Notes: generated from the sequence alone by a model not told the origin. A DNA stretch of 64,000 nt from Cetobacterium somerae (GCF_022430525.1 NZ_CP092520.1:124001-188000), one strand, 5' to 3'. Positions 23,257-59,719 are shown, counted from the stretch's first letter. Program-made: numbers and translations.

Positions 23257-26200
23257 GTGAAAGAAATTAATGTACTAAAACACCAATTAAAAAAAAAGAT
23301 CAAAATTAGTCAATCTTTAATCGTAGTTTTTTTAATAACAGGAAGTATAACTTATGCAATAGATATAGCTGACAGCTATATTAATGATGGCCATTTAAAC
23401 GAAGTAATAAATTTTACTGAAACGACCTCAAAACTCATAAATAACGGATTAATAGATTCTTCAACTTTTAATAGTAGTGTAGATGGTGGGGAGATTATGA
23501 ATAATGGAATTATTTATAATAGTCAATTTAATTTAAGCAAAGGTATGAAAAATTTCTTAAATTTAGGAACTGTTTTTGGAAGATATAATTCTATTCTATT
23601 AAAAAATAATGGAAATATTGTAAATAATGGAGTTATAGATACTAATATTGGAAATTATACAGCATCAACAGCTTTGCGTGTAAGTTTAGATGAAGTAGTT
23701 GATTCGAAACTAAATAGTATTGTTAATACAGGTTTTATACACGGAGTGCAAGGAGGAATTTCATTTTCAGGAAGTAAAAATTTAAAAAAAACATCTGGTG
23801 ATTTAAAGGAGTTTATTAATAAAGGAACTATTTCAACATTTGTAATTGGTAGAAAAGATTTTATGAGTTATCGAGGAGTTCAATTAAATTTATCTAAGAA
23901 AACTTTAAGTGGAATTAGTAATATTGAGAACATTAATAACTCGGGATTAATTAGTTCTGTTGTTGAGGGTGTAGGAAGTACCGTAGGGTTTTATATGGAT
24001 GGAAGTAAAGAAAATGCAAATGCAGTTTTTATAGAAAAATTTTTAAATAATGGAGTTATTTCTGGATATGCTGATGAAGGGAGTGGAAAGGGATTGTTTA
24101 TAAGCAACTCTACTCCATATCAAAATATTCAAGATGCTATTAAAACTATAATAAATAATGGTCTTATTAAAGGGAATGAAACAGGTATATTTACTTCTCA
24201 ACTTAATCCATCTAATATTTATTTAAATAATGGAATATTAGCTGGTAAAACACCAAGTGATGGAGTTAATTTTACGAATAATGGTCTTAAAATATTTTTA
24301 GATTCTAATGGAGGAATTAATAAAATAGAAGTTGGAAATGGTGGAAATGTAGATGGTAAAGAGATTGTAAATGGTACCCTTTCAGGAAATGATAGTTTTA
24401 CATTAGCTTCACAACTAAAAATAAATGATAATATTATTATAAATGGTGCTGGAACTTTAAAGGGATCTTTAGTAGTTGATAATGATAGTACACTTTATAA
24501 TACTATAATCAATGGATATAATACAGCTTTATTTTTAGAGGATAATACAAATTTTGTTGGATCTAATATCATTATAAATGGTGGAGGAGTAAAAAATAAT
24601 GTCGCAGTTGTTAAAGGAAGTGATGGTGAAAACTCTTTAAAATTATTAGGAGATTCAATAGTTAATGGAAACTTAGAATTGGAGAATGGAAATGATAATT
24701 TAGTAGTTTCAAATACTGTGCAACTAAATGGTAGTTTAGATGGAGGACTAGGAGAAGATAATTTAAATTTAGGAGAAAAAAAAGTTACGAATACTAAATT
24801 AAATATATTTCAAAAAATTAATAACTTTGAAAATATACTAACTAATGGAAGTGTTGTATTATTTGAAACTTCTAAAATAACAGGAGCAAAGGATATAGTT
24901 TTAGAAACTGGAGATTTAACACTAAGAATTGATCCAACAAAAACTTTGAATGGAAAAATAATAGGGCATGCGCTATATGAAAATGAAGGTACTTTATCTA
25001 GTACTGGAGGAGATTTAATAATAGGATTAAATGGGTTAGGAGAAAATGTAACTATTTCAATGGGAAAACTTTCCCTAAAGCCAGATATAAATAATAAATG
25101 GTGGAGAGAATCAGATCGTTTAAAAACTAACTCATTAGTTTTGGATGCTCAGTTAAAAGATGGAGATGTTTTTATAACAACTAAAAAAAATTTAGATTCA
25201 CTTTTATGGAAAAGTGGGAATACTTGGAATATTACTCAAGAAGATTTAAATAATTTACTATCTAATAATGAGGCTTTATTAAAAGATGGACACTATATAG
25301 GATTAGACTATGAAAATGCAATTTATCATACTATAAAAATATGGACAATTAATCAATCGCAAGAAGTATATCAAAAAGAGTTTGATATTTTAAAAAAAGA
25401 TGGAAAAATTGTAGAATTTGAGGGTAAAACATATGTAGTTAATAATAAAAATAACACAGCGTATGAAGTAGCAGTAAAACCATGGGTAGTGGCAGGAAAA
25501 TACGACATTTCAACAAGTAAGTTGGATGAACTAATAGCTTCAGGTGTAGAGATAGAAAATAAAAATGGAAAAATGTATGCAGTAGATAGAACAACAAATA
25601 AAGCATATGAAATAACAAACTGGACAGAAAAGCCATTTAAGGAGCTAACACAAAAAGAGTACGATAGTCTAAAAGCTGCAGGAGAAATAAAAATATATAA
25701 AGATAGAGAGTATGTTGTGGATAGTAAAAATAATACAGCGTATGAAGTAGCAGTAAAACCATGGGTAGTGGCGGGAAAATATGATATTTCAACAAGTAAG
25801 TTGGATGAATTAATAGCTTCAGGTGTAGAGATAGAAAATAAAAATGGAAAAATGTATGCAGTAGATAGAACAACAAATAAAGCATATGAAATAACAAACT
25901 GGACAGAAAAGCCATTTAAAGAACTAACACAAAAAGAGTATGATAGTCTAAAAGCTGCAGGAGAAATAAAAATATATAAAGATAAAGAGTATGTTGTGGA
26001 TAGTAAAAACAATACAGCGTATGAAGTAGTAGTAAAACCATGGGTAGTGGCAGGAAAATATGATATTTCAACAAGTAAGTTGGATGAATTAATAGCTTCA
26101 GGTGTAGAGATAGAAAATAAAAATGGAAAAATGTATGCAGTAGATAGAACAACAAATAAAGCATATGAAATAACAAACTGGACAGAAAAGCCATTTAAGG

Positions 26201-27618
26201 AGCTAACACAAAAAGAGTATGATAGTCTAAAAGCTGCAGGAGAAATAAAAACATATAAAGATAAAGAGTATGTTGTAGATAGTAAAAATAATACAGCGTA
26301 TGAAGTAGCAGTAAAACCATGGGTAGTGGCAGGAAAATATGATATTTCAACAAGTAAGTTAGATGAACTAATAGCTTCAGGTGTAGAGATAGAAAATAAA
26401 AATGGAAAAATGTATGCAGTAGATAGAATAACAAATAAAGCATATGAAATAAGCGTTGTAAAATCTCCAGAAGAACCAACTTTGAATATAGATAAAGTTT
26501 TATATAGAAAATTGAATAAAGTATATGAGTCAATAGTGATAGCGGGAGAAGTTGGAGAATTATCTCAAACAACTTTAATAGAAGGTAAAACATATAATGA
26601 ATCTTTAAGTGAATTACTAACAATTTTAGATCAAATATACGCAAATAATCCTTATGCTTATACTTTGAAATCATCAAGAGATAGTTTGAAATTATTTGAA
26701 GATAATCTGTCATATCTAACAATAAAACCTAAAAAAGATGAGATGATAGTTCAAGGTAAATCTATTTATACTGGAGTTAAAAATGATAGTAGTGATTCAG
26801 GAAAAAATTATTATGGTTTTGATACTAGCCATAGAAACTATAAGACAACAACAAATATAGTTGGAGGATTAGCAAGTTTTGAATATGGTTTAAGTGATAA
26901 AACATCTGTTGGAGTTGTTTTAGGTGGAAATAACCAAGATATTAACTTTAAAGGTTCAAGTAAAATAAAAGGAAATTCATTATATTTAGGAACATTTACT
27001 AAAACAGATATTAGTAATTTTAAATTTATGAGTGGGATTGGATATCAATATACATCAGCTGATGCAGAGAGAAAAGTATCAAACAGATATGATTCATTCT
27101 CAACAGGAGATAAATATGATATTAATTCATTAAATGCTTTTGTAGAGGCTAAATATGTTTATAATGCAGAGCAAGATTGGACGGTAGAACCAAAAGTAAG
27201 ATTAAGTTATTTTTATATAGATCAAGATAAAACAAATGAAGGATATACACCTGGACAAATATCAATGAAAACAGATGCAGTAAATAGTAATACAGCTGAT
27301 ATAGAAGTTGGAGTAGATTTTGTTAAGAGTTTATATTTAAATAATGGAAAATTAAAAAATATTTTATCTTTAGGAGTAATAAAGACAATTGGAGATAAAT
27401 CAAAAGAGTTAAGTGGTTATATATTAGGAAAAGAACAAGATGGGAAGAAGTTTGATATTCAAGGAGTAGAACTTCCTAAAACAACTGGAAAAGTTAGTTA
27501 TAACCTAGAGTTAGAACAAATAAATGGAATGATCTATACAGCAGGAGTAGGTTTAGAGTTTGCTAAAGATTATAATAGAAATATAAATGTAACTGTAGGA
27601 GTTGGATATAAATTTTAG
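23257..27618 (+). CDS. Large autotransporter (type Va) with tandem stalk repeats
   Basis: This 1453-aa surface protein starts at GTG 23257 after AAGGAG. It has the Fusobacterial N-terminal motif (HQLKKKIKISQSLIVVFLIT) and a signal ending ITYA. The passenger has Asn/Gly-rich beta-helix-like repeats (NNGLI, NNGVISG) to about residue 620. A block of near-identical 93-aa tandem repeats follows (about 705-1065). The C-terminal about 280 residues form the beta-barrel, ending GVGYKF with terminal Phe for BAM recognition. It is probably an adhesin or surface interaction protein; no protease or other catalytic domain is apparent. It may be co-transcribed with the Myb-like gene. Confidence 0.9.
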   Translation: MKEINVLKHQLKKKIKISQSLIVVFLITGSITYAIDIADSYINDGHLNEVINFTETTSKLINNGLIDSSTFNSSVDGGEIMNNGIIYNSQFNLSKGMKNFLNLGTVFGRYNSILLKNNGNIVNNGVIDTNIGNYTASTALRVSLDEVVDSKLNSIVNTGFIHGVQGGISFSGSKNLKKTSGDLKEFINKGTISTFVIGRKDFMSYRGVQLNLSKKTLSGISNIENINNSGLISSVVEGVGSTVGFYMDGSKENANAVFIEKFLNNGVISGYADEGSGKGLFISNSTPYQNIQDAIKTIINNGLIKGNETGIFTSQLNPSNIYLNNGILAGKTPSDGVNFTNNGLKIFLDSNGGINKIEVGNGGNVDGKEIVNGTLSGNDSFTLASQLKINDNIIINGAGTLKGSLVVDNDSTLYNTIINGYNTALFLEDNTNFVGSNIIINGGGVKNNVAVVKGSDGENSLKLLGDSIVNGNLELENGNDNLVVSNTVQLNGSLDGGLGEDNLNLGEKKVTNTKLNIFQKINNFENILTNGSVVLFETSKITGAKDIVLETGDLTLRIDPTKTLNGKIIGHALYENEGTLSSTGGDLIIGLNGLGENVTISMGKLSLKPDINNKWWRESDRLKTNSLVLDAQLKDGDVFITTKKNLDSLLWKSGNTWNITQEDLNNLLSNNEALLKDGHYIGLDYENAIYHTIKIWTINQSQEVYQKEFDILKKDGKIVEFEGKTYVVNNKNNTAYEVAVKPWVVAGKYDISTSKLDELIASGVEIENKNGKMYAVDRTTNKAYEITNWTEKPFKELTQKEYDSLKAAGEIKIYKDREYVVDSKNNTAYEVAVKPWVVAGKYDISTSKLDELIASGVEIENKNGKMYAVDRTTNKAYEITNWTEKPFKELTQKEYDSLKAAGEIKIYKDKEYVVDSKNNTAYEVVVKPWVVAGKYDISTSKLDELIASGVEIENKNGKMYAVDRTTNKAYEITNWTEKPFKELTQKEYDSLKAAGEIKTYKDKEYVVDSKNNTAYEVAVKPWVVAGKYDISTSKLDELIASGVEIENKNGKMYAVDRITNKAYEISVVKSPEEPTLNIDKVLYRKLNKVYESIVIAGEVGELSQTTLIEGKTYNESLSELLTILDQIYANNPYAYTLKSSRDSLKLFEDNLSYLTIKPKKDEMIVQGKSIYTGVKNDSSDSGKNYYGFDTSHRNYKTTTNIVGGLASFEYGLSDKTSVGVVLGGNNQDINFKGSSKIKGNSLYLGTFTKTDISNFKFMSGIGYQYTSADAERKVSNRYDSFSTGDKYDINSLNAFVEAKYVYNAEQDWTVEPKVRLSYFYIDQDKTNEGYTPGQISMKTDAVNSNTADIEVGVDFVKSLYLNNGKLKNILSLGVIKTIGDKSKELSGYILGKEQDGKKFDIQGVELPKTTGKVSYNLELEQINGMIYTAGVGLEFAKDYNRNINVTVGVGYKF
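25369..26452 (+). repeat. 279-bp tandem repeat inside the autotransporter gene
   Basis: About 3.9 units have an exact period of 279 bp (93 codons). The KPWVVAGKYDIS segment recurs at 25471, 25750, 26029 and 26308. The first half-unit is diverged; the others differ at few bases, implying recent expansion or gene conversion. Each unit is itself two related halves of about 46 residues, each ending AYE(V/I). Confidence 0.95.
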
Positions 27619-27740: not shown

Positions 27741-27771
27741 TTGACATTAACCTTAGGACATAGTTTATAAT
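27741..27771 (+). promoter_or_regulatory. MerR-type promoter with 19-bp spacer
   Basis: TTGACA (27741-27746) and TATAAT (27766-27771) are separated by 19 bp, the over-long spacing typical of MerR-activated promoters. The spacer holds the dyad-like ATTAACCTTAGG. The operon encodes its own MerR domain, so autoregulation is expected. Confidence 0.75.
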
Positions 27772-27803: not shown

Positions 27804-28787
27804 ATGAAATTTAAAGCATTTTTAGTTACAGAAGAAGATGGAAAATATAACAGAAGTATTGTAGAAAAAAATATTGATGAACTACCTGATTATGATACTT
27901 TAATTAAAATTGAGTATAGTTCACTAAACTATAAAGATGCATTATCAGCAAGTGGAAATAAAGGTGTTACAAAAGTTTATCCTCATACTCCTGGAATTGA
28001 TGGTGCAGGTACAGTTGTAGAAAGTAAAAATCCAAATTTAAAACCTGGAACAGAAGTTATTATCACAGGATATGATTTTGGAATGAACACTTCAGGTGGT
28101 TATCAAGAATATGTAAAAGTTCCTTCTGAGTGGGTTGTACCTCTTCCTAAAAATATGTCATTAAAAGAGAGCATGATTTATGGAACAGCTGGTTTAACTG
28201 CAGCTATTTCAGTTTATAAATTAGTTATTAAAGGAGAGGTTAAACCAGAAGATGGAGAGATTTTAGTGACTGGAGCTACTGGTGGGGTTGGATCAGTTGC
28301 AGTTAAAATCTTAAGTAAATTAGGATATGATGTTGTTGGAGTTACGGGTAAACTTGAGGAAAAAGAGTTTCTATTAAATATTGGTGCTAAGAGAGTTATA
28401 GGAAGAGATGAAGTAAATGACACATCAAGACCTATATTAAAAGGAGTTTACGCAGGAGCTATTGATACTGTTGGTGGAAATATTCTTTCTACAGCTATAA
28501 AATCTTTGAAATATAACGGTGTGGTTACAACTTGTGGAAATGTTGCAGGAGCTTCTTTTGAATCATCTGTTTATCCGTTTATAATAAGAGGAGTGACTCT
28601 TTATGGAGTGGACTCTGTTCAAATAAGTTCTTCTGAAAGAGAGCTTCTATGGAATAAGTTATCTATAGAGTGGAAGATAGATGATTTAGAAAAACTTTCT
28701 ACAGAAGTAACATTAGAAGAGTTAAATGAAAAAATTGAATTAATTTTAAAAGGGGAAAATAAAGGGAGAGTTATTGTTAAGTTATGA
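27804..28787 (+). CDS. YhdH/YhfP-type quinone oxidoreductase (MDR family)
   Basis: This zinc-free medium-chain reductase is 327 aa from ATG 27804; the earlier in-frame ATG at 27792 overlaps the GGAGG site. Motifs include SSLNYKDALSASGNKG, PHTPGIDGAGTV, YGTAGLTAA and the NADP-binding TGATGGVGSVAV. YhdH/AcuI relatives reduce activated enones such as acryloyl-CoA, and others reduce quinones. Its stop overlaps the start of the MerR-flavoprotein gene (ATGA), so the two are translationally coupled. Control by the MerR half suggests a response to an electrophile or quinone-like ligand. Family is secure; substrate is open. Confidence 0.9.
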   Translation: MKFKAFLVTEEDGKYNRSIVEKNIDELPDYDTLIKIEYSSLNYKDALSASGNKGVTKVYPHTPGIDGAGTVVESKNPNLKPGTEVIITGYDFGMNTSGGYQEYVKVPSEWVVPLPKNMSLKESMIYGTAGLTAAISVYKLVIKGEVKPEDGEILVTGATGGVGSVAVKILSKLGYDVVGVTGKLEEKEFLLNIGAKRVIGRDEVNDTSRPILKGVYAGAIDTVGGNILSTAIKSLKYNGVVTTCGNVAGASFESSVYPFIIRGVTLYGVDSVQISSSERELLWNKLSIEWKIDDLEKLSTEVTLEELNEKIELILKGENKGRVIVKL

Positions 28788-31321
28788 AAAAAGATCTGTA
28801 TTTAATAGGTGAAATATCAAAGATAACAGGACTTTCTAATAAAACGTTGAGATACTATGATGAAAATAATATTTTGAAACCAGATTATGTTGATCCAAAT
28901 AACGGTTATAGATATTATAGTGAATATCAAATTTTAAAACTTCAAAATATAATAACTCTTAAAGACAATGGATTCTCTTTAGAAGAGATAAAAAAAAGAT
29001 TTGACCAAGGTGAAACTAGAGAGATAAATAGTTTTTTTGATATATACAAAAAGAAAATTGAAGATATAGATATTCAGATAGAAAATTTAAAAAATAGTAA
29101 GAAGAGACTTGAAAATCTTTTAGATGAATTTTCCTATTTGGAAGTGGATAAAATTATTTTAAAGTGTTTACCTAAAAAGTTTTTATATAACTTAGATGTT
29201 ATCACTAATAAAGATTTAAATAACTCAATCTTTGATATTTATAAAATTATTGAAGCTTCTGTTGAATGTGGAAGCGCTCATTTGGGAAAAAAATTTAGAT
29301 TTTCAAACTTGAGAGATTATACTATAGAAAAAATAAGTGAGTTTTTACTTTTTAAAAATGAAAATTATTTAAAAAGTATAGAAAAAATTGAAAGAAATGA
29401 ATATATAACAATAAGGTATCGATATGGAAACAAAGAGAGTGCACTAAAAAAGATTTTAGACTACATATCTTTAAATAAAATTAGTATTGAACCATTTATT
29501 TATGAAATTGATATTATAAACTCATTTTTATCTCAAAATAAAAACGAATATATAACAGAGATTCAAATTCCAATAAAGACAGTTATATTTAATGAGGAGA
29601 CAAAAATGAAAAATGGAAAATTTATAGGTATAGGAAAAGGATATGGAGGGGATATTTCTGTAGAGGTTGAAATCAATGATAGCTCTATAAAAAATATAGA
29701 AATTCTTTCTCATAATGAAACTAAAATAATTTCTGATCCAGCCTTTGTTCATATACCTAGATTAGTTTTAGAAAGCAATAGTATTTTAGTTCCTAATGTT
29801 TCAGGATGTTCTATGAGTTCAAGAGGAATTAGAGAAGCTATAAAAAATGCTTTAATTCAAGGTGGTGAAAGTTTAGACAAACTTGAAATCCAAATGTTAG
29901 AAGCTGAAAACTTAGTTAAAATAGGAGATGGAGCTAGTAAAAAAATAATTAAACCTGTTGAAAATTTTGACGTTGTCATTGTGGGAGCTGGAGGGGCTGG
30001 ATTATCAGCAGCTATTTCGGCAGCTTCTAAAGGTGCAAAAGTAGTTTTATTAGAAAAAATGTCATCAATTGGTGGGAATACACTTATTTCTATGGGAGGA
30101 ATAAACATTCCTGGAAATGATGCACAAATAGAAAAAGATATTCAAGATTCAGTTGAACTTTATAAAAAAGATATTCTCTTAGGTGGAGATAATGAAAACT
30201 CATTGGAACTTCTGGATATTTTTGTAAATGAAGCTCTACCAACATATAGATGGCTAAAGGATGAGATTAAAGTTTCTTTTAAAAATGAACTTATTCATTT
30301 TGGTGGGCATACAGTACCAAGAGCAGCAGTGTTTTCTGGTAAATATGCAATTGAATTAATTGCAAAATTAAGAGCAAAAGCAGTTTCGTTGGGAGTTGAT
30401 ATTAGAACTGGAGTACGTTCTAAAGAGTTAATAATCGATGGAGATTCAAGAGTGATTGGAGTTTTAGCAACTATTGAAGAGAAAAATGTTAAGTTTATGA
30501 GTAAAAAAGGAGTTATTTTAACTACTGGTGGTTTTAGTGGAAATATTGAATTAAGAAAAAAATATAATCCAAGTTTAGATGAAAGATATAAAACTACAAA
30601 TATAAGTGGGATAACTGGAGATGGGCACTTAATGTGTGAAAAGGTTGGAGCAGATTTTATTCAAATGGAGTATATTCAAACTTTTCCTATTTCTAATCCT
30701 GAAACAGGAGAACTTTCTCATGTTGGAGGAAGTCGATTTGATGGAGCTATACTAGTTAATAAATGTGGAGAGAGATTTGTAGAGGAGCTTGAAAGAAGAG
30801 ATACTGTGTCAGAAGCTATATTGAAACAGGAAAATGGAGTAGGTTATTTAGTTTGGGGACAAGAGATTGAAAAGATAACTAACTATGTTAGTAAAAATAA
30901 AGAGGAAGTTGAGAGATTGAAAAATTCCAATTTAATTGTTGTTTCAGAAACTTTAGAAGATGCTGCTAAATTTATGGGTGTTGATGAAGAAAAGCTTTTA
31001 AGTACAATTGAAAGATATAATGATTTTGTCAAAAACAAAAAAGATTTAGATTTTAATAGAAGAGGAAGTTTAGTTTCAATTTCAGAAGGACCTTATTATA
31101 TTCAAAAAGTTGCTCCAGCAGTACATCATACAATGGGTGGCGTTCGAATTAATAAAGAAAACCAAGTTCTCAATAAAAATGGAGAAGTTATTGAAGGATT
31201 ATTTGCAGCAGGAGAGATTGTCGGAGGTCTTCATGGTACAAATAGATTAGGTGGTAATGCCATAACTGAGATAATTGTTTTTGGAAAAAGAGCAGGAGAA
31301 AATATATTTAAAGAAAATTAA
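28784..31321 (+). CDS. MerR/GyrI-like regulator fused to FMN_bind-FAD fumarate-reductase-like flavoprotein
   Basis: One uninterrupted 845-aa frame joins two complete proteins. Residues 6-75 are a MerR helix-turn-helix (IGEISKITGLSNKTLRYYD), about 80-115 a dimerisation coiled coil, and 120-268 a GyrI/BmrR-like ligand domain ending YITEIQIPIK. From Met275 comes FMN_bind (KGYGGDISVEV; VSGCS 339-343), then FAD_binding_2 from about 374 (VVIVGAGGAGLSAAISAA). Fumarate-reductase residues are present: ERRD with R672, HHTMGG with H781-H782, NRLGG with R821. There is no signal peptide, unlike the paralogues at 55249 and 58022. The flavinylation motif DxxSGAT is degenerate (NVSGCS). An internal ATG with its own ribosome site may also yield the 571-aa flavoprotein alone. 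Confidence 0.9.
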   Translation: MKKDLYLIGEISKITGLSNKTLRYYDENNILKPDYVDPNNGYRYYSEYQILKLQNIITLKDNGFSLEEIKKRFDQGETREINSFFDIYKKKIEDIDIQIENLKNSKKRLENLLDEFSYLEVDKIILKCLPKKFLYNLDVITNKDLNNSIFDIYKIIEASVECGSAHLGKKFRFSNLRDYTIEKISEFLLFKNENYLKSIEKIERNEYITIRYRYGNKESALKKILDYISLNKISIEPFIYEIDIINSFLSQNKNEYITEIQIPIKTVIFNEETKMKNGKFIGIGKGYGGDISVEVEINDSSIKNIEILSHNETKIISDPAFVHIPRLVLESNSILVPNVSGCSMSSRGIREAIKNALIQGGESLDKLEIQMLEAENLVKIGDGASKKIIKPVENFDVVIVGAGGAGLSAAISAASKGAKVVLLEKMSSIGGNTLISMGGINIPGNDAQIEKDIQDSVELYKKDILLGGDNENSLELLDIFVNEALPTYRWLKDEIKVSFKNELIHFGGHTVPRAAVFSGKYAIELIAKLRAKAVSLGVDIRTGVRSKELIIDGDSRVIGVLATIEEKNVKFMSKKGVILTTGGFSGNIELRKKYNPSLDERYKTTNISGITGDGHLMCEKVGADFIQMEYIQTFPISNPETGELSHVGGSRFDGAILVNKCGERFVEELERRDTVSEAILKQENGVGYLVWGQEIEKITNYVSKNKEEVERLKNSNLIVVSETLEDAAKFMGVDEEKLLSTIERYNDFVKNKKDLDFNRRGSLVSISEGPYYIQKVAPAVHHTMGGVRINKENQVLNKNGEVIEGLFAAGEIVGGLHGTNRLGGNAITEIIVFGKRAGENIFKEN
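29593..29608 (+). promoter_or_regulatory. Internal ribosome site and start inside the fusion gene
   Basis: GAGGAGA is followed 5 nt later by an in-frame ATG (29606-29608, Met275), exactly where the flavoprotein homology begins. It looks like the start of a once separate gene. Confidence 0.7.
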
Positions 31322-31330
31322 GAGTTTTAA

Positions 31331-31362
31331 AAAAGTTATAGGTAGCTCTATAACTTTTTTTG
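31331..31362 (+). terminator. Rho-independent terminator
   Basis: An 11-bp stem AAAAGTTATAG/CTATAACTTTT with loop GTAGCT and a T run ends the MerR-flavoprotein operon. Confidence 0.88.
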
Positions 31363-31382: not shown

Positions 31383-31410
31383 TTGACATTATAAAAAAAT
31401 AGGTTATAAT
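31383..31410 (+). promoter_or_regulatory. Promoter of the yhf cluster
   Basis: TTGACA (31383-31388) and TATAAT (31405-31410) with 16-bp spacing, both perfect hexamers, lie about 50 bp before yhfZ. Confidence 0.78.
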
Positions 31411-31461
31411 AAGTACATAAATCTTATTTTCAAAAAAATGAAAATTAGAAAAGAGGTAGAT

Positions 31462-32343
31462 ATGAATAGTAAAACTGGAAAATTACAAAAAGCTATAGTG
31501 GGATTGTCAAAAGATATTTTAGGTAGAGAGATAGATGATAATTTAGATACAATTACAAACTACTCTGAGTATTTAGAACTATCTTTAGGAACAATTCAAA
31601 AAGCTTTGAAAGAACTAACAGATAAAAAAGTAATTGATTTAAAGAAAAAAGGTAAGTATGGAACTGTAATTGAAAATATAGATTACAAAAATCTTTTAAA
31701 AGTTTTAAAGGTAGATTACTTACTATGTGTTATGCCAATAACATATTCACAGAGATATAAAAAAATAATGGATAATATAACAAATAGTTTAAAGATTCCA
31801 ATTCCATTATATTTTTCTCACATGAGAGGTGGATATGTAAGATTAAAACTTATTGAAGAGGGTGTTTATCATTTTGGTGTTGTTTCAAAATTAGCAGCTC
31901 AAAATGCTATTGATTCTGGATTTGATTTGGAGATTATAGAGCAATTTGGACCAAGAACTTATGTTACGAAACATGTTATTTTAAAAAGGAAAAATGGAGA
32001 AGTGGTTAATGTTGGAAAGGATCCTGAGTCTAACGACCATATTTTTTTAACAAATTTTAATTTTCAAAAAAATGAAAATATAAATTTTGTAGATATTAAA
32101 TATTCAGAAGTTATTGAAAATTTAATAGATGGAAAGATTGATGCAGCTATCTGGAACTATGATGATGTTCTAGATAAAATGATACACTTAGAAAAACATG
32201 GGATAGTAATAGAGGAGCTAAATGAAAATGAGGGAAATCTTTTAGCTACTGAATCAGTTATAGTAATAAGAAAAGATAATCAGATTATAAAAAATATATT
32301 TAAAAAATTTTTCGATAAGGAAAAATTTAAACTTATAGATTAA
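31462..32343 (+). CDS. yhfZ: YhfZ-like DNA-binding regulator
   Basis: This protein (293 aa from ATG 31462) matches E. coli YhfZ (301 aa) in size and layout. It has an N-terminal helix-turn-helix region with TITNYSEYLELSLGTIQKALKEL, then a periplasmic-binding-like ligand domain (VMPITYSQRY, LYFSHMRGGYVRLKLIEEG, FGVVSKLAAQNAI, IDAAIWNYDD). The frame opens at ATG 31438, but the AAGAGGT site favours 31462. It heads a cluster with the other yhf genes and is the likely transcriptional regulator. The ligand is unknown. Confidence 0.85.
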   Translation: MNSKTGKLQKAIVGLSKDILGREIDDNLDTITNYSEYLELSLGTIQKALKELTDKKVIDLKKKGKYGTVIENIDYKNLLKVLKVDYLLCVMPITYSQRYKKIMDNITNSLKIPIPLYFSHMRGGYVRLKLIEEGVYHFGVVSKLAAQNAIDSGFDLEIIEQFGPRTYVTKHVILKRKNGEVVNVGKDPESNDHIFLTNFNFQKNENINFVDIKYSEVIENLIDGKIDAAIWNYDDVLDKMIHLEKHGIVIEELNENEGNLLATESVIVIRKDNQIIKNIFKKFFDKEKFKLID

Positions 32344-32361
32344 GTAAAATTTGGAGGGAAG

Positions 32362-32715
32362 ATGGATTTACAAACTAGATTAGAAATTTTAAATGTTTCA
32401 GGAGCAATAACTGATTGTACAAAAGATGTTATGCTAAATGTAATTAATATGTTTAATGAAAAGCATAATATTGAACTTACTGAAGATAATGGTGCGATGA
32501 TGGTAACTCATCTATCAATGGCTATAACAAGAGTGAAAAATGGTGAGCCAGTTAAAACTATAGATGAAGAGGTATTTAAAGAGACTTTAGAAAGTGAGCA
32601 TATTGAAAGAGCTAATCTAATTTATGATGATTTATCAGAGGTTTTAGATGTAACTTTACCAGATGATGAAAAGAAGTATATGCTTGTAAATATCTGTGTA
32701 ATATTAGAAAAATAA
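32362..32715 (+). CDS. yhfY: YhfY-like PRD-domain protein
   Basis: This 117-aa single PRD domain shows the phosphorylatable-His context MVTHLSMAITRVKNGEP (His50). PRD domains are usually phosphorylated by PTS proteins and attached to antiterminators or activators; here the domain stands alone as in E. coli YhfY (120 aa). It probably lets PTS status modulate YhfZ or the transporter. It starts 18 nt after yhfZ and is 33 nt before yhfU. Confidence 0.85.
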   Translation: MDLQTRLEILNVSGAITDCTKDVMLNVINMFNEKHNIELTEDNGAMMVTHLSMAITRVKNGEPVKTIDEEVFKETLESEHIERANLIYDDLSEVLDVTLPDDEKKYMLVNICVILEK

Positions 32716-32748
32716 TTAAAAAATTAAAATAAGAGGGAGTGGATTTTA

Positions 32749-33108
32749 ATGAAAAGAATAGTTATAGGTGGACAGATTGATAAAGAGAGATTAGCTGAAA
32801 CAGTAAGAAAAATATGTGGAGAAAGAGCTGTTATAACAGTGAAAACAGATATTGAAGCGGCTATGGATGTAAAAACAAATATGGCAGATTATTATTTAGG
32901 AGCTTGTAATACTGGTGGAGGTGGAGCTTTAGCTATGGCTATTGCACTTTTAGGAGCAAGTAATTGCGCTACAGTTTCTATGCCAGGAAACATAAAAAGT
33001 GACGAAGAAATAAAATCTGAAATTGCCGCTGGAAAAAAGGCTTTTGGATTTACAGCTCAGCACATAGATGCAGTTGTACCAGTTATTTTAGCAGAGATTT
33101 TAAAATAG
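32749..33108 (+). CDS. yhfU: YhfU-like protein (unknown function)
   Basis: The 119-aa protein corresponds to YhfU (117 aa in E. coli). It opens MKRIVIGGQIDKERLAE and has a glycine-rich stretch GACNTGGGGALAMAIALLG followed by CATVSMPG, suggesting a small Rossmann-like or PTS EIIB-like fold. It is adjacent to the membrane protein YhfT and may be its cytoplasmic partner, which is inference only. The ribosome site is GAGGGAG before the ATG; yhfT follows after 9 nt. Confidence 0.83.
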   Translation: MKRIVIGGQIDKERLAETVRKICGERAVITVKTDIEAAMDVKTNMADYYLGACNTGGGGALAMAIALLGASNCATVSMPGNIKSDEEIKSEIAAGKKAFGFTAQHIDAVVPVILAEILK

Positions 33109-33117
33109 GGGGTAAGA

Positions 33118-34404
33118 ATGAACTATATAGTTGCAGTTTTATTGGGAGGTTTAGCAGCACTTTTAGCAAACAGAGGAGTAGCTATATTCAATGATGGATT
33201 AAGACCTATTGTTCCTGAGTTTTTAGAGGGAAGAATGGATAGAAAATCTTTAGCAGCTACAAGTTTTGCTTTAAGCTTTGGTTTAGTTGTAGGATTTGGA
33301 ATTCCATTTTCCCTTACAACACATATAATTCTTATTCATAGTATTCTTTTGGGAACAGATATAATTGGAACATCTTTTAGTTTTGATAAAAAAGGTGCAA
33401 TTTTATCAACTGTAGCTGGTGGACTTTATGGACTTCTAATAACTCTTGGATTAAAAGTTGTTGTGGAACTATTTGCAAAATTACCAGTGAATTTCTTACC
33501 ATCTTTAGGAAAAGTAGGATCTCCAATTATAGTTGCATTTGCTGCATTCCCAGCATTGGTAGTGGCTTATCAATATGGATTTAAAAAAGGAGCTACAACT
33601 TTTGGATTGACTATAGTTATTAGACAACTTGTTCAAAAGTATGGAACTTTCATGTTTGATGGAAGTAAGGTAGTACTAAATCCAGATGGAATGGCATTAC
33701 TGGTAGCTATGGTAATTATGATTGCTTTTGCTATGAGAGAAAAGGCAGCTACTGATGCTCCTGGATCAAATGCAATGTTACTTAATATATTTGCTGCTAG
33801 AGTTGAAAGAATAAAGAAAAATATTTTAGGATTAGCTCTTATGGGAGGAATAATATCTGCGGCTATAAGCTTACATTTAGTTGCAGGAGATCCAATATCT
33901 TTAAATCTTTTAGCTGATGGAAAAACTTCTGAAGCTGGACTTGCAGCATTAGCAAGAGCTATTGGATTTGTACCATTGGTTGCTACAACTGCTATAGCAA
34001 CTGGAGTTTATGCTCCAGCAGGAATGACTTTTGTATTTGCAATTGGAATTTTCTTAAGAAATCCTTTTATAGCATTTATAGGTGGAGCAGCAGCTATTTG
34101 TTTTGAGATATATGCTCTTGGAGCAATAGCTAAATTCTTAGATAAATTCCCAGGAGTAAAAGGTTGTGGAGATCAGATTAGAACAGCTATGTCTAGAGTT
34201 TTAGAAGTTGCACTTATTGTTGGTGGAATGATTGCAGCTGATGCAATGGCTCCAGGACTTGGTTATCTGTTTGTAGCTGGAGTTTATATTTTAAATAAAA
34301 CAGCTAAGAAACCTCTTGTAGATATGGCAGTGGGACCTGTAGCTGCAATATTCTTTGGAATTTTACTAAATATATTCTCAGTTTTAGGATTATATGGTGC
34401 ATAG
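33118..34404 (+). CDS. yhfT: YhfT-like polytopic membrane protein, probable transporter
   Basis: This 428-aa protein is very hydrophobic with about 11-12 membrane helices. Landmarks are ALLANRGVAIFNDGLRPIVP at the N-terminus, FGIPFSLTTHIILIHS, and the APGSNAMLLN loop in the middle. It matches E. coli YhfT (about 434 aa). No transport substrate is known; with yhfU and the PRD protein it resembles the organisation of PTS-linked permeases but shows no clear phospho-carrier motif. It is followed by a 12-bp perfect hairpin before the amidase-like gene. Confidence 0.85.
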   Translation: MNYIVAVLLGGLAALLANRGVAIFNDGLRPIVPEFLEGRMDRKSLAATSFALSFGLVVGFGIPFSLTTHIILIHSILLGTDIIGTSFSFDKKGAILSTVAGGLYGLLITLGLKVVVELFAKLPVNFLPSLGKVGSPIIVAFAAFPALVVAYQYGFKKGATTFGLTIVIRQLVQKYGTFMFDGSKVVLNPDGMALLVAMVIMIAFAMREKAATDAPGSNAMLLNIFAARVERIKKNILGLALMGGIISAAISLHLVAGDPISLNLLADGKTSEAGLAALARAIGFVPLVATTAIATGVYAPAGMTFVFAIGIFLRNPFIAFIGGAAAICFEIYALGAIAKFLDKFPGVKGCGDQIRTAMSRVLEVALIVGGMIAADAMAPGLGYLFVAGVYILNKTAKKPLVDMAVGPVAAIFFGILLNIFSVLGLYGA

Positions 34405-34415
34405 CATAGATAAAG

Positions 34416-34443
34416 TTTAAGAGGAGTTTTTACTCCTCTTAAA
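34416..34443 (+). repeat. Perfect 12-bp hairpin between yhfT and the amidase-like gene
   Basis: TTTAAGAGGAGT (34416-34427) pairs perfectly with 34432-34443 around TTTT. No T run follows on +, so it is more likely an mRNA-stability or attenuation element than a full terminator. Confidence 0.65.
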
Positions 34444-34461
34444 TTATAGTGAGGTGAAGAA

Positions 34462-35493
34462 ATGGATATAAAAGCTCTTTCTGGAGTACAAAGAACAAAG
34501 GAATTTTTAGGTAAAAGCGTGAAGAAGCAAAATCCAAATATAATTTTAGATATATTTAGAGAAGATTCTAATTATAAAACTTTTGGAGTTAAAGAGACTA
34601 GTGAGATAAGTGATAACATCATAAAAAAGTTATTAAAGAAAGGTTATTCTTGGAACACAATTGATAGTTGTACAGATAGAGGAAGAGCTGTAGATCTAAA
34701 TCTTTTAAATCCAATAACAGGAAAACTTATGATTGGTTCATCTAGTGGAACAGCGATAAATGTTTTATATGGATTAAACACAGTTGGAGTTGGAACTGAT
34801 GGGGGAGGCTCTGTGCTTGGCCCAGCTATAGGCTTAAATCTATATTCAGTTTTACTTTCTGGAGTTGGACTTAAAGGAAGAACAAATAAAAAATCAACAG
34901 ATTCTATAGAATTTACACCAGGAGTTGGATTTATAACTCAAGATTTTACTGAATTAGAAAAAGTTTGTGAGATATTTTTAACTGAACCTCAAGAGATTAT
35001 AAAAAAATGCTGCGTTATAGATTTAGATATTGAATGCTATGGAAAATTAAAAAAAGGTTATGAGATAAATATTTTAGAAAAACAAGAAAAACTTTATGAA
35101 AGAGATATTATGATAGAGTTTTTAAAAAATACTTTTAAATCATATAGTGCGCTTATATATTTAGAAAAAGATGTGGAGCTTTATGGTTTAGGAGACTCTG
35201 TCTTTGGAGTTATGGGAGAGAAAGCTAAAGAGATTCAAAAAAATTCAAATAAAGGATTTTTAAAAGTTTTAAATATGTTAAATTGTTCAGCTATAACTAT
35301 TCCAACAGGAGATATAGGAAGTGCAATTGTTATAGTTGTACCAGAGGGCGAGATATATTTGAAATCTTTACTAGAGATATCTAAAGTTTTAAATGAGGAT
35401 AAAAGGCCAAAACTTTATAGAGAGTATTTTCTAAACTATCCATTAAAAGAGATAGATAATCGAGATTTTAAAATTTGGAGGGAAAATGATTAA
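34462..35493 (+). CDS. Amidase-signature-family protein in the yhf cluster
   Basis: The 343-aa protein is shorter than ordinary amidases (about 450-500 aa). It keeps the signature core: IGSSSGTAINVLYG (candidate cis-Ser S94) and GTDGGGSVLGPAIG (candidate nucleophile S117), spaced 23 residues much as in FAAH (24), then GLKGRTNKKSTDSIEFTPGVG. The upstream catalytic Lys cannot be placed with confidence. It overlaps yhfV by 8 nt, so it is a true operon member although E. coli yhf lacks such a gene. It could open an amide or lactam in the unknown yhf pathway, or be a non-catalytic relative. Confidence 0.72.
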   Translation: MDIKALSGVQRTKEFLGKSVKKQNPNIILDIFREDSNYKTFGVKETSEISDNIIKKLLKKGYSWNTIDSCTDRGRAVDLNLLNPITGKLMIGSSSGTAINVLYGLNTVGVGTDGGGSVLGPAIGLNLYSVLLSGVGLKGRTNKKSTDSIEFTPGVGFITQDFTELEKVCEIFLTEPQEIIKKCCVIDLDIECYGKLKKGYEINILEKQEKLYERDIMIEFLKNTFKSYSALIYLEKDVELYGLGDSVFGVMGEKAKEIQKNSNKGFLKVLNMLNCSAITIPTGDIGSAIVIVVPEGEIYLKSLLEISKVLNEDKRPKLYREYFLNYPLKEIDNRDFKIWREND

Positions 35494-36361
35494 AGATATA
35501 ACATATATGCATGAACATGTAACAATAGATCTCTCTAAGGAGAAAAATAATATAGATTGTAAATTGGATACCTTTGATATAACGAAAGAGGAGTTTTTAA
35601 GATTAAAAGAACTTGGAGTAACTAGAGTTGTAGATGTGAGTAATGTTGGTATTGGTAGAGATGTGGATTATGTTATGAAAATGGAGGAGGCCACAGGACT
35701 AAATATCTATATGTCTACGGGGTATTATAAGGAACCTTTTTTGCCAAAAGAAGTTGAAGAGTTAAGTGTTGAAGAGCTTGCTAAAAAAATGATAGATGAT
35801 ATAAAGATTGGAATAGATGGAAAAACTAAATGTGCAACACTTATAGGAGAGATTGGAACAGGATTTGAAATTATGACTGAGCTTGAAAAAAAAGTTTTCC
35901 ACGCAGCTGCAATTGCTCAAAAAGCCACAGGAGTTTTTATAACAACTCATACAAGTTTGGGGAAATTAGGGCATGAGCAGTTGGATTTTTTAGAAAACTT
36001 AGGTGTAGATTTAAATAAAGTTATTTTAGGACATGTAGCGTTGAGTGGTAATTTAAATTATATAAAATCTCTTTTAAAAAGAGGAGCCTATGTAGAGTTT
36101 GATACTATTGGTAAAAATAACTATCTTCCTGATGAAACTAGGGTTGATTTTATAAAAACACTTTGTGAAGAGGGATGGAGTGAAAAATTATTAATGTCAG
36201 TTGATTTAACAAGAAGATCTCACTTAAAAACAAATGGTGGAATTGGGTATGCATATCTAATTGAAACTTTTGTTCCTATGCTAAAAGAGGTTGGGGTAAA
36301 AGAGAGTGATTTAAAAAATATGTTGGTAGAAAATCCAAAGAGAATTTTAGGAGTTGAATGA
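35486..36361 (+). CDS. php: Phosphotriesterase homology protein (YhfV/Php)
   Basis: This 291-aa TIM-barrel metallohydrolase has the binuclear metal pattern: YMHEHVTID (H9, H11), LIGEIGTG with bridging Glu, TTHTS, LGHVALSGN and SVDLTRRSH with the final Asp. It corresponds to E. coli Php (292 aa), which lacks phosphotriesterase activity; relatives are lactonases. It overlaps the upstream gene by 8 nt and yhfS by 4 nt (ATGA), showing tight translational coupling. Confidence 0.9.
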   Translation: MIKDITYMHEHVTIDLSKEKNNIDCKLDTFDITKEEFLRLKELGVTRVVDVSNVGIGRDVDYVMKMEEATGLNIYMSTGYYKEPFLPKEVEELSVEELAKKMIDDIKIGIDGKTKCATLIGEIGTGFEIMTELEKKVFHAAAIAQKATGVFITTHTSLGKLGHEQLDFLENLGVDLNKVILGHVALSGNLNYIKSLLKRGAYVEFDTIGKNNYLPDETRVDFIKTLCEEGWSEKLLMSVDLTRRSHLKTNGGIGYAYLIETFVPMLKEVGVKESDLKNMLVENPKRILGVE

Positions 36362-55248: not shown

Positions 55249-56931
55249 ATGAATAAAAGAATCATACTACTAGCAGCATCGCTACTAGTTTTAAGTCAAG
55301 CAACACTATCAAAGGAACGTACTTTTTTAACAAAGGCCAATGGGTATTCTGGTGAAATAAAGTTAGAGGTTATAGCAGAGGGACAAGAAGTGAAAGATAT
55401 AAAAGTTGTATCACACAATGAAACAGTTCCTGTTATGACAAGAGCGTTTCCTATGCTAAAAGAGAGAATTTTAGAGGCTCAATCACCAATAGTGGATAGT
55501 GTTTCTGGAGCAACACATACATCTACAGCTATAAAAAGAGCGGTAAATGATGTCTATAAACAACTAGGAAAAGATTATGGAAGAATTACAGCAAGAACAA
55601 AAGGACCTGAGTTACCAGTTGCCTATTTAGAGCCTGTATCTACAGATCTTGTAATTGTAGGAGGAGGACCAGCTGGATTAGCAGCAGCTATATCAGCAAA
55701 AGAGAAGGGTCTAAAAAATGTAATTTTAATTGAAAAAATGGATATGCTGAGTGGTAATGGAAAGTTTGATATGAACTTCTATGATTTAATAAATTCAGAG
55801 GCTCAAAAAGCTAATGGGATGAATGATACAGTAGAAAGTTTAATAAAGGACAACACAAATCCAATGGATACACCAGAGCGTACAAAAGCTCAAGCTGAAG
55901 GAGCCTTTGTTTTAGATAAATGGTTAAGAGAGATGGGGATTAAATTAAATTACCATTATGGAAAAAGAGGGCACATGGCTGAAAAGAATGTGTATGCTGG
56001 TGAAGTTATACAGGATAAAATGGAAGCTAGAGCAAAAGAGTTAGGAGTAGATATTCGTACTTCAACAAAAGGTTTAGATTTAATTATAAATAACGGTGTT
56101 GCAACAGGAGTAAAAGTTCAAAATAAAAATAATTTTTATGATATAAATGCAAAAGCTGTAGTAGTTGCAACAGGTGGATTCTCAGCTAATCCAGAGTTAT
56201 TGGCAAAATATGCTCCAGGAACAGAGAAATTACAGCACTCAAATCAAATTAGTGCGACAGGAGATTTAATTCCAGTATTTGAAAAAAATAATATTCAATT
56301 AGCTAATTTAGAAGTAATGAATCTGATACCATTTATTTTAGGATCAACAAGAGATTTAGCAGGTCCTAATGGTGATGGAATGATGTTAGTTAATATAAAT
56401 GGAGAGAGATTTACAAAGGAACATATAACTAAAGATGAAAGAATGGATATGGCTAAAAAGATGTTAGCTCAACCAGAAGCCAAAGTATTCTATGTATTTG
56501 ATAAAAAGTTATATGATTCAAGCTATCGTTTACAAAAACATACAAAAAAAGGATACCATTTAGTTGCGAACTCAATAGAGGAGTTAGCAGAGAAAATGGG
56601 AGTGCCAGTGACAACATTTAAAGAAACAGTGGTAACTTATAATAAAGGAGTACGTGGAGAGGTAAAAGATCCATTTAGAGAGGCTAAAGCAAAAAGAGAG
56701 TTTGATATGAGTGGACCATTCTATGCAGTTTTAGTTGAACCAGCTGTTCATATGACAAGAGGTGGAGTTGTAGCTAACGAGAAAACTGAGGTTATTCAAA
56801 ATAATGGAGAAATAGTTAAAGGGCTTTTTGCAGCTGGAGAGGTAACAAGTACAAGTGCGGCATATAGTGCTTCTGTAATATTTGGACGTGTAGCTGGAGA
56901 AAATGCAGTAAAGTTTATAAATAAAAAATAG
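55249..56931 (+). CDS. Exported FMN_bind/FAD flavoprotein reductase with divergent active site
   Basis: The 560-aa protein has a signal peptide (about 1-20), FMN_bind with flavinylation motif DSVSGAT (D83-T89), then FAD_binding_2 from about 133 (LVIVGGGPAGLAAAISA). It would reduce a substrate outside the cytoplasm with electrons delivered via covalent FMN. Fumarate-reductase residues seen in the paralogue at 58022 are altered: HHTMGG is HMTRGG (H501), the ETRD segment is missing, and NRxGGNA is replaced by a SAAYSAS segment. A different acceptor is likely. It is separated from the LysR gene by a terminator. Confidence 0.9.
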   Translation: MNKRIILLAASLLVLSQATLSKERTFLTKANGYSGEIKLEVIAEGQEVKDIKVVSHNETVPVMTRAFPMLKERILEAQSPIVDSVSGATHTSTAIKRAVNDVYKQLGKDYGRITARTKGPELPVAYLEPVSTDLVIVGGGPAGLAAAISAKEKGLKNVILIEKMDMLSGNGKFDMNFYDLINSEAQKANGMNDTVESLIKDNTNPMDTPERTKAQAEGAFVLDKWLREMGIKLNYHYGKRGHMAEKNVYAGEVIQDKMEARAKELGVDIRTSTKGLDLIINNGVATGVKVQNKNNFYDINAKAVVVATGGFSANPELLAKYAPGTEKLQHSNQISATGDLIPVFEKNNIQLANLEVMNLIPFILGSTRDLAGPNGDGMMLVNINGERFTKEHITKDERMDMAKKMLAQPEAKVFYVFDKKLYDSSYRLQKHTKKGYHLVANSIEELAEKMGVPVTTFKETVVTYNKGVRGEVKDPFREAKAKREFDMSGPFYAVLVEPAVHMTRGGVVANEKTEVIQNNGEIVKGLFAAGEVTSTSAAYSASVIFGRVAGENAVKFINKK

Positions 56932-58021: not shown

Positions 58022-59719
58022 ATGTTTAAAAAGAGTTTAATTATGTTGTCTTTAGTGTCAAGTTTAGTTATGGCGTCTAAAGAGGAGTTTGTAGGAAGTG
58101 GAAAAGGGTATAACGGTGATATTAAGGTTAAAGTTTCTGTAGAGAATAAAAAAATAACTGATATTGAAGTGGTTAAACATGAAGAGTCTGGATTTACAAG
58201 AAGAGCTATGAAAAAAATTAATGACGAGATTTTAAGCTCACAATCATTAGATATTGATAATATAGCAGGTGCAACTTATACAAGTGAGGGAATAAAAGAA
58301 GCTGTGGGAAAAGCGATTGCTTCATCAGGAGTGATATTAAATAAAGTTGCTAAAAAAGCTACGATAAATGAAGAGTTAAAAGACTTGGAAACAGATATTG
58401 TTGTTGTAGGTGGTGGTGGAGCAGGACTTTCAGCTGCTATTGCTGCAAAAGAAAATGGAGCTAGAGTAATTTTATTAGAGAAAATGCCTATGGTTGGAGG
58501 AAATACTAATTATGCTACAGGAGGAATTAATGCAGCAGATACAAGTATTCAGAAAAAATTAGGAATAGAAGATTCAGCTGAATTATATTATAACGATACA
58601 ATGAAGGGTGGTAAAAATCTGAATAATCCATCTCTTTTGAAAAAATTAACAGAAGAATCTAAATATGCTATCGATTGGTTAATTTCTAAGGGAACTGATT
58701 TAACAGAGGTATCATTTTCTGGAGGACAAAGTGTTAAGAGAATACACAGACCTACAGGAGGAAAAGCAGTAGGACCTGTTATAGTTGATGCATTAAATTC
58801 TACTCTTGAAAATATGGGAGTTGAAACTAAAACAAACAATAAAGTAGTAAAAATTTTAATGGAAAATAATAAAGTAAGTGGAGTATTAGTTGAAAATAAT
58901 GGTAAAGAATATAAGATTAATGCAAAAGCCGTTATTATGGCAACTGGTGGATTTGGAGCAAATGCCGATATGGTAAGTGAATATAATCCTAAGTTAAAAG
59001 GATTTGGAACAACAAATAACCCTGCAATTACTGGTGAAGGAATAAAACTTATTCAAGAAGTTGGTGGAGATCTTGTAGATATGGAGCAGATTCAAACTCA
59101 TCCAACTGTTGTACATCAAACTTCTAATATGATTACAGAGAGTGTAAGAGGAGAGGGAGCGATTCTTGTAAATAGAGATGGAAAAAGATTCATAAATGAG
59201 TTAGAAACAAGAGATGTTGTTTCTAAAGCTGAGTTAGAGCAAAAAGGAAAATCAGCTTTTCTTATTTTTGATCAACAAACGAGAGAGAACTTATCTGCTA
59301 TAAATGGTTATGTAAAAAAAGGATTAACTAAAGAAGCTAATAATATTTCAGAATTATCTAAAATTATTGGAGTAGATTCTAAAGAGTTAGAAAAAACAAT
59401 AACTAGATATAATAGTTTTGTTAAAAATGGAAAAGATTCGGATTTTGGAAAAAAAGGACTACCTAGAGAGATAGTAAAAGCACCTTTTTATGCAATAGAA
59501 GTTTCACCAGCAATACACCACACAATGGGTGGAGTTAGAATAAATGAAAATGCAGAAGTATTAGATAAAAATGGAGATAAAATTCAGGGACTTTATGCAG
59601 CAGGAGAGATAACTGGTGGAGTACATGGTGGTAATAGAATTGGAGGAAACGCTGTTACAGATATAATTGTATTTGGAAAAATAGCTGGAGAAAACGCAGC
59701 GAAAGAGGTAAAAAATTAA
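58022..59719 (+). CDS. Exported FMN_bind/FAD fumarate-reductase-like flavoprotein
   Basis: The 565-aa protein has a signal peptide (MFKKSLIMLSLVSSLVMAS), FMN_bind with flavinylation motif DNIAGAT (D79-T85), and FAD_binding_2 from about 126 (IVVVGGGGAGLSAAIAA). The full set of fumarate/urocanate reductase residues is present: ETRD with R397, HHTMGG with H499-H500, and NRIGGNA with R539. It probably reduces an enoate outside the cytoplasm as terminal electron acceptor. An ApbE flavinyl transferase is required but is not in this window. The predicted GntR operator and the divergent LysR gene suggest dual control. Confidence 0.92.
   Translation: MFKKSLIMLSLVSSLVMASKEEFVGSGKGYNGDIKVKVSVENKKITDIEVVKHEESGFTRRAMKKINDEILSSQSLDIDNIAGATYTSEGIKEAVGKAIASSGVILNKVAKKATINEELKDLETDIVVVGGGGAGLSAAIAAKENGARVILLEKMPMVGGNTNYATGGINAADTSIQKKLGIEDSAELYYNDTMKGGKNLNNPSLLKKLTEESKYAIDWLISKGTDLTEVSFSGGQSVKRIHRPTGGKAVGPVIVDALNSTLENMGVETKTNNKVVKILMENNKVSGVLVENNGKEYKINAKAVIMATGGFGANADMVSEYNPKLKGFGTTNNPAITGEGIKLIQEVGGDLVDMEQIQTHPTVVHQTSNMITESVRGEGAILVNRDGKRFINELETRDVVSKAELEQKGKSAFLIFDQQTRENLSAINGYVKKGLTKEANNISELSKIIGVDSKELEKTITRYNSFVKNGKDSDFGKKGLPREIVKAPFYAIEVSPAIHHTMGGVRINENAEVLDKNGDKIQGLYAAGEITGGVHGGNRIGGNAVTDIIVFGKIAGENAAKEVKN

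Follow-up and report, generated by a model that had tools for sequence, protein, structure and literature searches.

Can a transcription factor and a complete redox enzyme be encoded as one bacterial protein, and if so, does the enzyme serve the regulator or is it only tethered to it? Fusions of a transcription factor to a whole, apparently intact enzyme are uncommon, PutA being the textbook flavoenzyme case. The question is raised here by a 64,000-nucleotide stretch of Cetobacterium somerae DNA (NZ_CP092520.1:124001-188000; "the window", in which positions are counted from the first letter). A first-pass annotation had described one open frame of 845 codons holding a full MerR regulator with ligand domain and a full FMN_bind plus FAD flavoprotein, and our analysis bears this out: positions 28784-31321 (plus strand) form a single open frame for an 845-aa protein, supported by Pfam matches and homologues.

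The N-terminal part comprises a MerR winged-helix DNA-binding domain (aa 6-74, 28799-29005; Pfam MerR_1, E 2e-17, above the curated cut-off; PF13411, 63 bits versus a cut-off of 21.6), a long dimerisation helix predicted by low-confidence structure models (aa 81-117, 29024-29134) and a BmrR/GyrI-like ligand domain (aa 119-266, 29138-29581). Its closest solved structure is BmrR, on whose residues 1-276 fusion residues 1-264 align end to end. A search with a profile built only from the ligand domain also finds BmrR (E 6e-4), the match lying in the C-terminal half of that domain; the Pfam GyrI-like model stays below its cut-off on the window protein, and AlphaFold models of the ligand domain (pLDDT 23-45) are too weak to show domain contacts. 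The C-terminal part consists of an FMN_bind domain (aa 286-357, 29639-29854; E 3e-12, above the curated cut-off) with the atypical motif PNVSGCSMSS and an FAD/clamp flavoprotein domain (aa 394-843, 29963-31312), the latter matched by FAD_binding_2 at 396-826 (E 6e-77, above the curated cut-off) and by NCBIfam flavocyto_c at 396-839 (464 bits versus a cut-off of 285). Urocanate reductase UrdA is its closest solved structure (E 1e-127). Judged by these matches, both partners are complete, the N-terminal half being a BmrR-like MerR regulator and the C-terminal half a predicted cytosolic FMN_bind plus FAD reductase.

The survey covered 98 genomes of the phylum Fusobacteriota and, beyond the phylum, plasmid records and one scan of close-relative contigs. 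Full-length fusions were found in four further Fusobacteriaceae genomes (G010, 89% identity; G004, 69%; G020, 65%; G005, 41%), so that the fusion is intact in five genomes and two genera, G020 belonging to the other genus. A further copy in G008 (L045:6999-9131) has lost residues 222-353 by an in-frame deletion, and with them FMN_bind and the last part of the ligand domain; its HTH and FAD domains remain in frame. These in-frame fusions (G010, G004, G020, G005 and G008) make a frameshift or resequencing artefact very unlikely. A sequencing or assembly error joining two genes, in favour of which only the rarity of the architecture can be cited, can be practically dismissed: the same in-frame junction recurs in five genomes at 89-41% identity, on differing contigs and in differing contexts. 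The scenario in which all homologous genomes carry two separate genes at this spot was also checked, and fused homologues exist. A 1156-codon frame in G006 was considered as an additional fusion and rejected, since it encodes a normal exported protein that has a start of its own. Between the window's genome (G000) and G010 dN/dS is low in all fusion domains (0.04-0.19), and among the copies the linker sequence diverges with the reading frame kept in both genera. No plasmid record gave a match covering 80% of the fusion query, the contig scan matched two Cetobacterium MAGs, and the literature on such architectures or on related cytosolic reductases yielded no such fusion. We have thus found no published description of a MerR, FMN_bind and FAD_binding_2 architecture, and its true spread and novelty beyond Fusobacteriota are uncertain.

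Unfused orthologues of the flavoprotein part (about 570 aa, 60-66% identity, without signal peptide), which had escaped the first-pass annotation, were found in further genera of the Fusobacteriaceae and also on a plasmid of Paraclostridium, where they adjoin a nitroreductase and a MarR gene. In the flavoprotein tree the cytosolic proteins, fused or not, group together (100/99) to the exclusion of the exported UrdA-like and Frd-like ones. In the MerR tree, too, the halves from the fusions make up a single clade (85/91) that leaves out free-standing MerR proteins; the G005 branch is long in both cases, and a single origin shared with the other fusions is compatible with the MerR-half clade. The fusion protein has no signal peptide, whereas the two window paralogues starting at 55249 and 58022 both begin with one (read by eye). 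The absence of an export signal noted earlier is therefore real as an observation; it is probably ancestral, since the closest unfused relatives are also cytosolic. Loss of an export signal through the fusion event is ruled out by the common clade of fused and unfused cytosolic proteins. The simplest origin would be two adjoining genes that merged once the stop codon separating them was lost.

The junction itself fits such an origin. An internal Shine-Dalgarno sequence, GAGGAG (29594-29599, plus strand), lies 6 bases 5' of an in-frame ATG (29606-29608, codon 275), where the unfused enzymes start, a feature that had been missed before. Its predicted pairing with the 16S tail (-8.6 kcal/mol) ranks in the top 1.2% of 332 internal in-frame ATGs of the window and comes close to the first-ATG median of -8.9 kcal/mol. 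At the equivalent internal ATG the values are -8.7 in G010, -11.6 (with long spacing) in G004 and -5.9 in G020, and G005 has none; synonymous conservation in the region of the internal start is not exceptional. The codon-275 start may still function or may be a leftover, and the chance that the fusion gene also yields a free 571-aa reductase from it falls just short of even. A MerR precedent for a working internal start is TipAL/TipAS of Streptomyces, whose MerR-family gene likewise has an internal start in frame that allows the effector part to be made by itself; the TipA effector is a thiopeptide-binding domain, whereas that of the fusion is a flavoenzyme and its internal start is predicted only.

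The retained Shine-Dalgarno sequence and ATG also suit a scenario in which stop codon loss between two operon genes created a mere co-expression device: a BmrR-like regulator that senses through its GyrI-like domain, with the flavoprotein as a tethered enzyme without signalling. The presence and conservation of the BmrR-like ligand domain and the intact catalytic residues of most copies speak for it as well. On the other hand, the in-frame join has been kept across two genera despite the divergence of the linker, the G005 copy without the essential Arg still has both the fusion and the FAD motifs, and in G008 the ligand domain is partly deleted with the HTH and FAD domains staying in frame. 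We regard this scenario as rather unlikely, and yet as the chief rival of the sensing model favoured below.

What the regulator controls is suggested by its surroundings. The fusion is preceded by yhdH (27804-28787, plus strand; acrylyl-CoA reductase family, TIGR02823), whose conserved start is 27804 and not 27792, matching homologues in G010, G005 and G002; further 5', 23257-27618 encodes an autotransporter-like protein of 1453 aa, in which a near-identical repeat of about 90 residues recurs several times. The proposed coupling to the YhdH-type gene is upheld by a 4-bp overlap of the yhdH stop with the fusion start, in G000 as in G010. The two genes adjoin in only one sub-lineage, and G002 has yhdH without the fusion. 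A MerR-type promoter/operator, TTGACA-19 bp-TATAAT, lies 5' of yhdH at 27741-27771 (plus strand), the position for which an operator had been proposed. The same arrangement is found 5' of yhdH in G010 and at a second locus of G005, where yhdH is followed by a twice-deleted, in-frame fusion remnant of 85 codons (L056:4756-5013) with the operator intact, and directly 5' of the fusion in G008, G004 and G020. The spacer of the top promoter-like pair measures 19 bp in all six close copies, remnant included, and 17 or 16 bp in the regions 5' of five unfused orthologues; no clear 19-bp promoter was seen in the intergenic region of the divergent G005 fusion. Just past the -10 box, the unfused orthologues L046, L047, L048 and L049 have GTACGAnATCGTAC-like palindromes, which suggests a different regulator for the unfused enzymes. 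A spacer dyad, CCCTAAGGG/CCCTAGGG, is visible in G004 and G020 and does not exceed shuffled sequences.

Allowing up to two mismatches, the operator consensus occurs exactly once in each of 4 of the 12 genus genomes and in none of the other 8 (reversed control, 0), so the pattern indicates no further targets in these genomes. At the 3' end, an AT-rich hairpin followed by a T run (AAAAAGTTATAG-loop-CTATAACTTTTTTT, 31330-31361, plus strand; read by eye) is a probable terminator, missed by a terminator scan that demands 3 GC pairs. The unit of a YhfZ-type regulator 3' of the hairpin has its own promoter at 31383; past the regulator this unit (31438-36361) continues with genes similar to those of the E. 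coli yhf/php operon. Given an operator pattern confined to these sites, a hairpin at the end of the unit and a separate promoter for the operon that follows, the fusion probably acts as a local MerR-type autoregulator. Its likeness to BmrR of B. subtilis covers the winged helix, the predicted long helix, the GyrI-like domain and the 19-bp-spacer promoter; what BmrR lacks is the complete flavoprotein, about 575 extra C-terminal residues.

Is this flavoprotein still an enzyme, and for which substrate? The FAD motif and the Arg411/His520/Arg560 set of the fumarate/urocanate-reductase superfamily are present, and all six UrdA positions R411, H520, H521, R560, G563 and R390 are kept (fusion positions 672, 781, 782, 821, 824 and 651), in agreement with the earlier reading that the catalytic Arg and His residues are retained. 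In UrdA, R560A abolishes activity, and Tyr373 and Asp388 are needed for urocanate recognition (PMC7921117). The latter two correspond to Phe634 and Gly649 in the fusion, a Phe/Gly pair common to the unfused clade, and the same Phe/Gly replaces His365/Glu378 of fumarate reductase (Fcc3 type) in the alignment. Identification as a urocanate reductase or as a fumarate reductase is thereby ruled out, and fumarate-like acids, previously put forward as ligands, are unlikely. With the clamp kept and the polar residues lost, the predicted pocket has one carboxylate clamp and no polar groups at its other end. The fusion thus shares with UrdA and flavocytochrome c3 fumarate reductase the FAD/clamp fold, the FAD motif and the R411/H520/R560 set, and with UrdA the FMN_bind domain as well; it differs from them in being cytosolic and joined to a MerR protein and in its Phe/Gly pocket and atypical FMN motif.

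Several exported relatives were annotated alongside. L053 of the same genome (G000:C1:1063481-1065163), with an apparent signal peptide and the UrdA signature Tyr373, Asp388, Glu177 and Phe243, is a probable exported urocanate reductase. Within the window, the exported paralogue at 58022-59719 shows His and Glu where fumarate reductases have them, and the exported FMN_bind/FAD paralogue at 55249-56931 is possibly not a reductase of UrdA type (Arg411 is Lys, His521 is Met, Arg560 falls in a gap). An exported FMN_bind/FAD flavoprotein of G021 (L032:979-3276) ends, by eye, in an OmpA-like domain.

The FMN domain itself is unusual, which the first-pass annotation had overlooked together with the location of ApbE. 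The motif reads [SA]GATx[ST] in those exported paralogues for which one was matched, GCSx[ST]S in the cytosolic clade and SGCSMSS in the fusion. The sole ApbE of the genome is a lipoprotein (lipobox LLGC), and the ApbE proteins found in ten other, related genomes are all lipoproteins likewise; a cytosolic fumarate reductase of Klebsiella needed a cytosolic ApbE (review PMC12052999). Because the motif is atypical and ApbE is exported rather than cytosolic, the FMN domain of the fusion probably lacks covalent flavinylation.

The G005 fusion, also unrecorded in the first-pass annotation, is catalytically degenerate (R560 to Cys, R390 to Ile, H521 to Tyr; FAD motifs kept) and looks like an enzyme turned sensor, decay being possible as well. 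It faces an acyl-CoA dehydrogenase-EtfBA-MFS-acyl-CoA dehydrogenase-CoA-transferase operon, whose chemistry is likewise that of enoates and enoyl-CoA. Taken together, the pocket residues, the YhdH family and this CoA-ester operon suggest, tentatively, a 2-enoate-type acid as ligand (acrylate- or cinnamate-like, with one carboxylate and an apolar tail). BmrR relatives are multidrug sensors, and a switch for electrophiles or xenobiotics (reactive alpha,beta-unsaturated carbonyls, quinones), in which induced YhdH serves detoxification as a medium-chain reductase with help from the flavoprotein, would accord with this background and with YhdH scoring above the broad acrylyl-CoA reductase family cut-off and below the AcuI equivalog cut-off. 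The strictly kept carboxylate-binding R411/H520/R560 set points to an acid instead, and the CoA-ester metabolism of the G005 neighbourhood also argues against such a switch, which we consider improbable.

We infer regulation, ligand and internal start alike from sequence. The model of an autoregulatory MerR protein that induces yhdH along with its own gene, and whose conformation depends on ligand or redox state at the fused FAD site, has an even chance of being correct, and the balance tips slightly towards the flavoprotein as the sensor. As a counterpoint, the MerR half already carries its own BmrR-like ligand domain, and the flavoprotein therefore need not be the sensor. If it is, a MerR dimer would sit on the promoter and keep it poorly active; binding or reduction of an enoate at the FAD site, or the resulting FAD redox state, would change the dimer, and the changed dimer would realign the over-long promoter for more yhdH and own expression. 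Less certain still, one mRNA would give YhdH, the sensor-regulator and the free enzyme. The full combination, in which the MerR protein reads from the active site of its own flavoenzyme whether substrate is bound or which redox state the FAD is in, realigns the promoter and is accompanied by free reductase from the internal start, is doubtful and somewhat less probable than the tethered-enzyme scenario.

Enzyme folds as effector domains of transcription factors are known from MocR/GabR proteins, in which an HTH is fused to an aminotransferase-like fold; there the fold is of the PLP type and the HTH of the GntR type, whereas the enzyme residues of the fusion are mostly intact. Closer in principle is trifunctional PutA, in which an RHH DNA-binding domain is joined to a proline dehydrogenase flavoenzyme under presumed autogenous operon control (PMC5293562). 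PutA works by RHH repression, and the fusion, built from other families, would act by MerR activation via promoter geometry; PutA indicates that the regulator-flavoenzyme principle works, here with other parts, and our best reading of the fusion is PutA-like in this sense, an autoregulatory MerR protein with an enoate-reductase-like flavoprotein as its putative sensor. A MerR version would make promoter activation, substrate turnover and flavin redox state measurable on one protein, with natural variants for comparison (unfused orthologues, G008 without the FMN domain, G005 without the essential Arg). If the MerR protein does read its own flavoenzyme, it would represent a new class of flavin-based one-component regulator, and the G005 protein would be its catalytically dead relative, a pure sensor.
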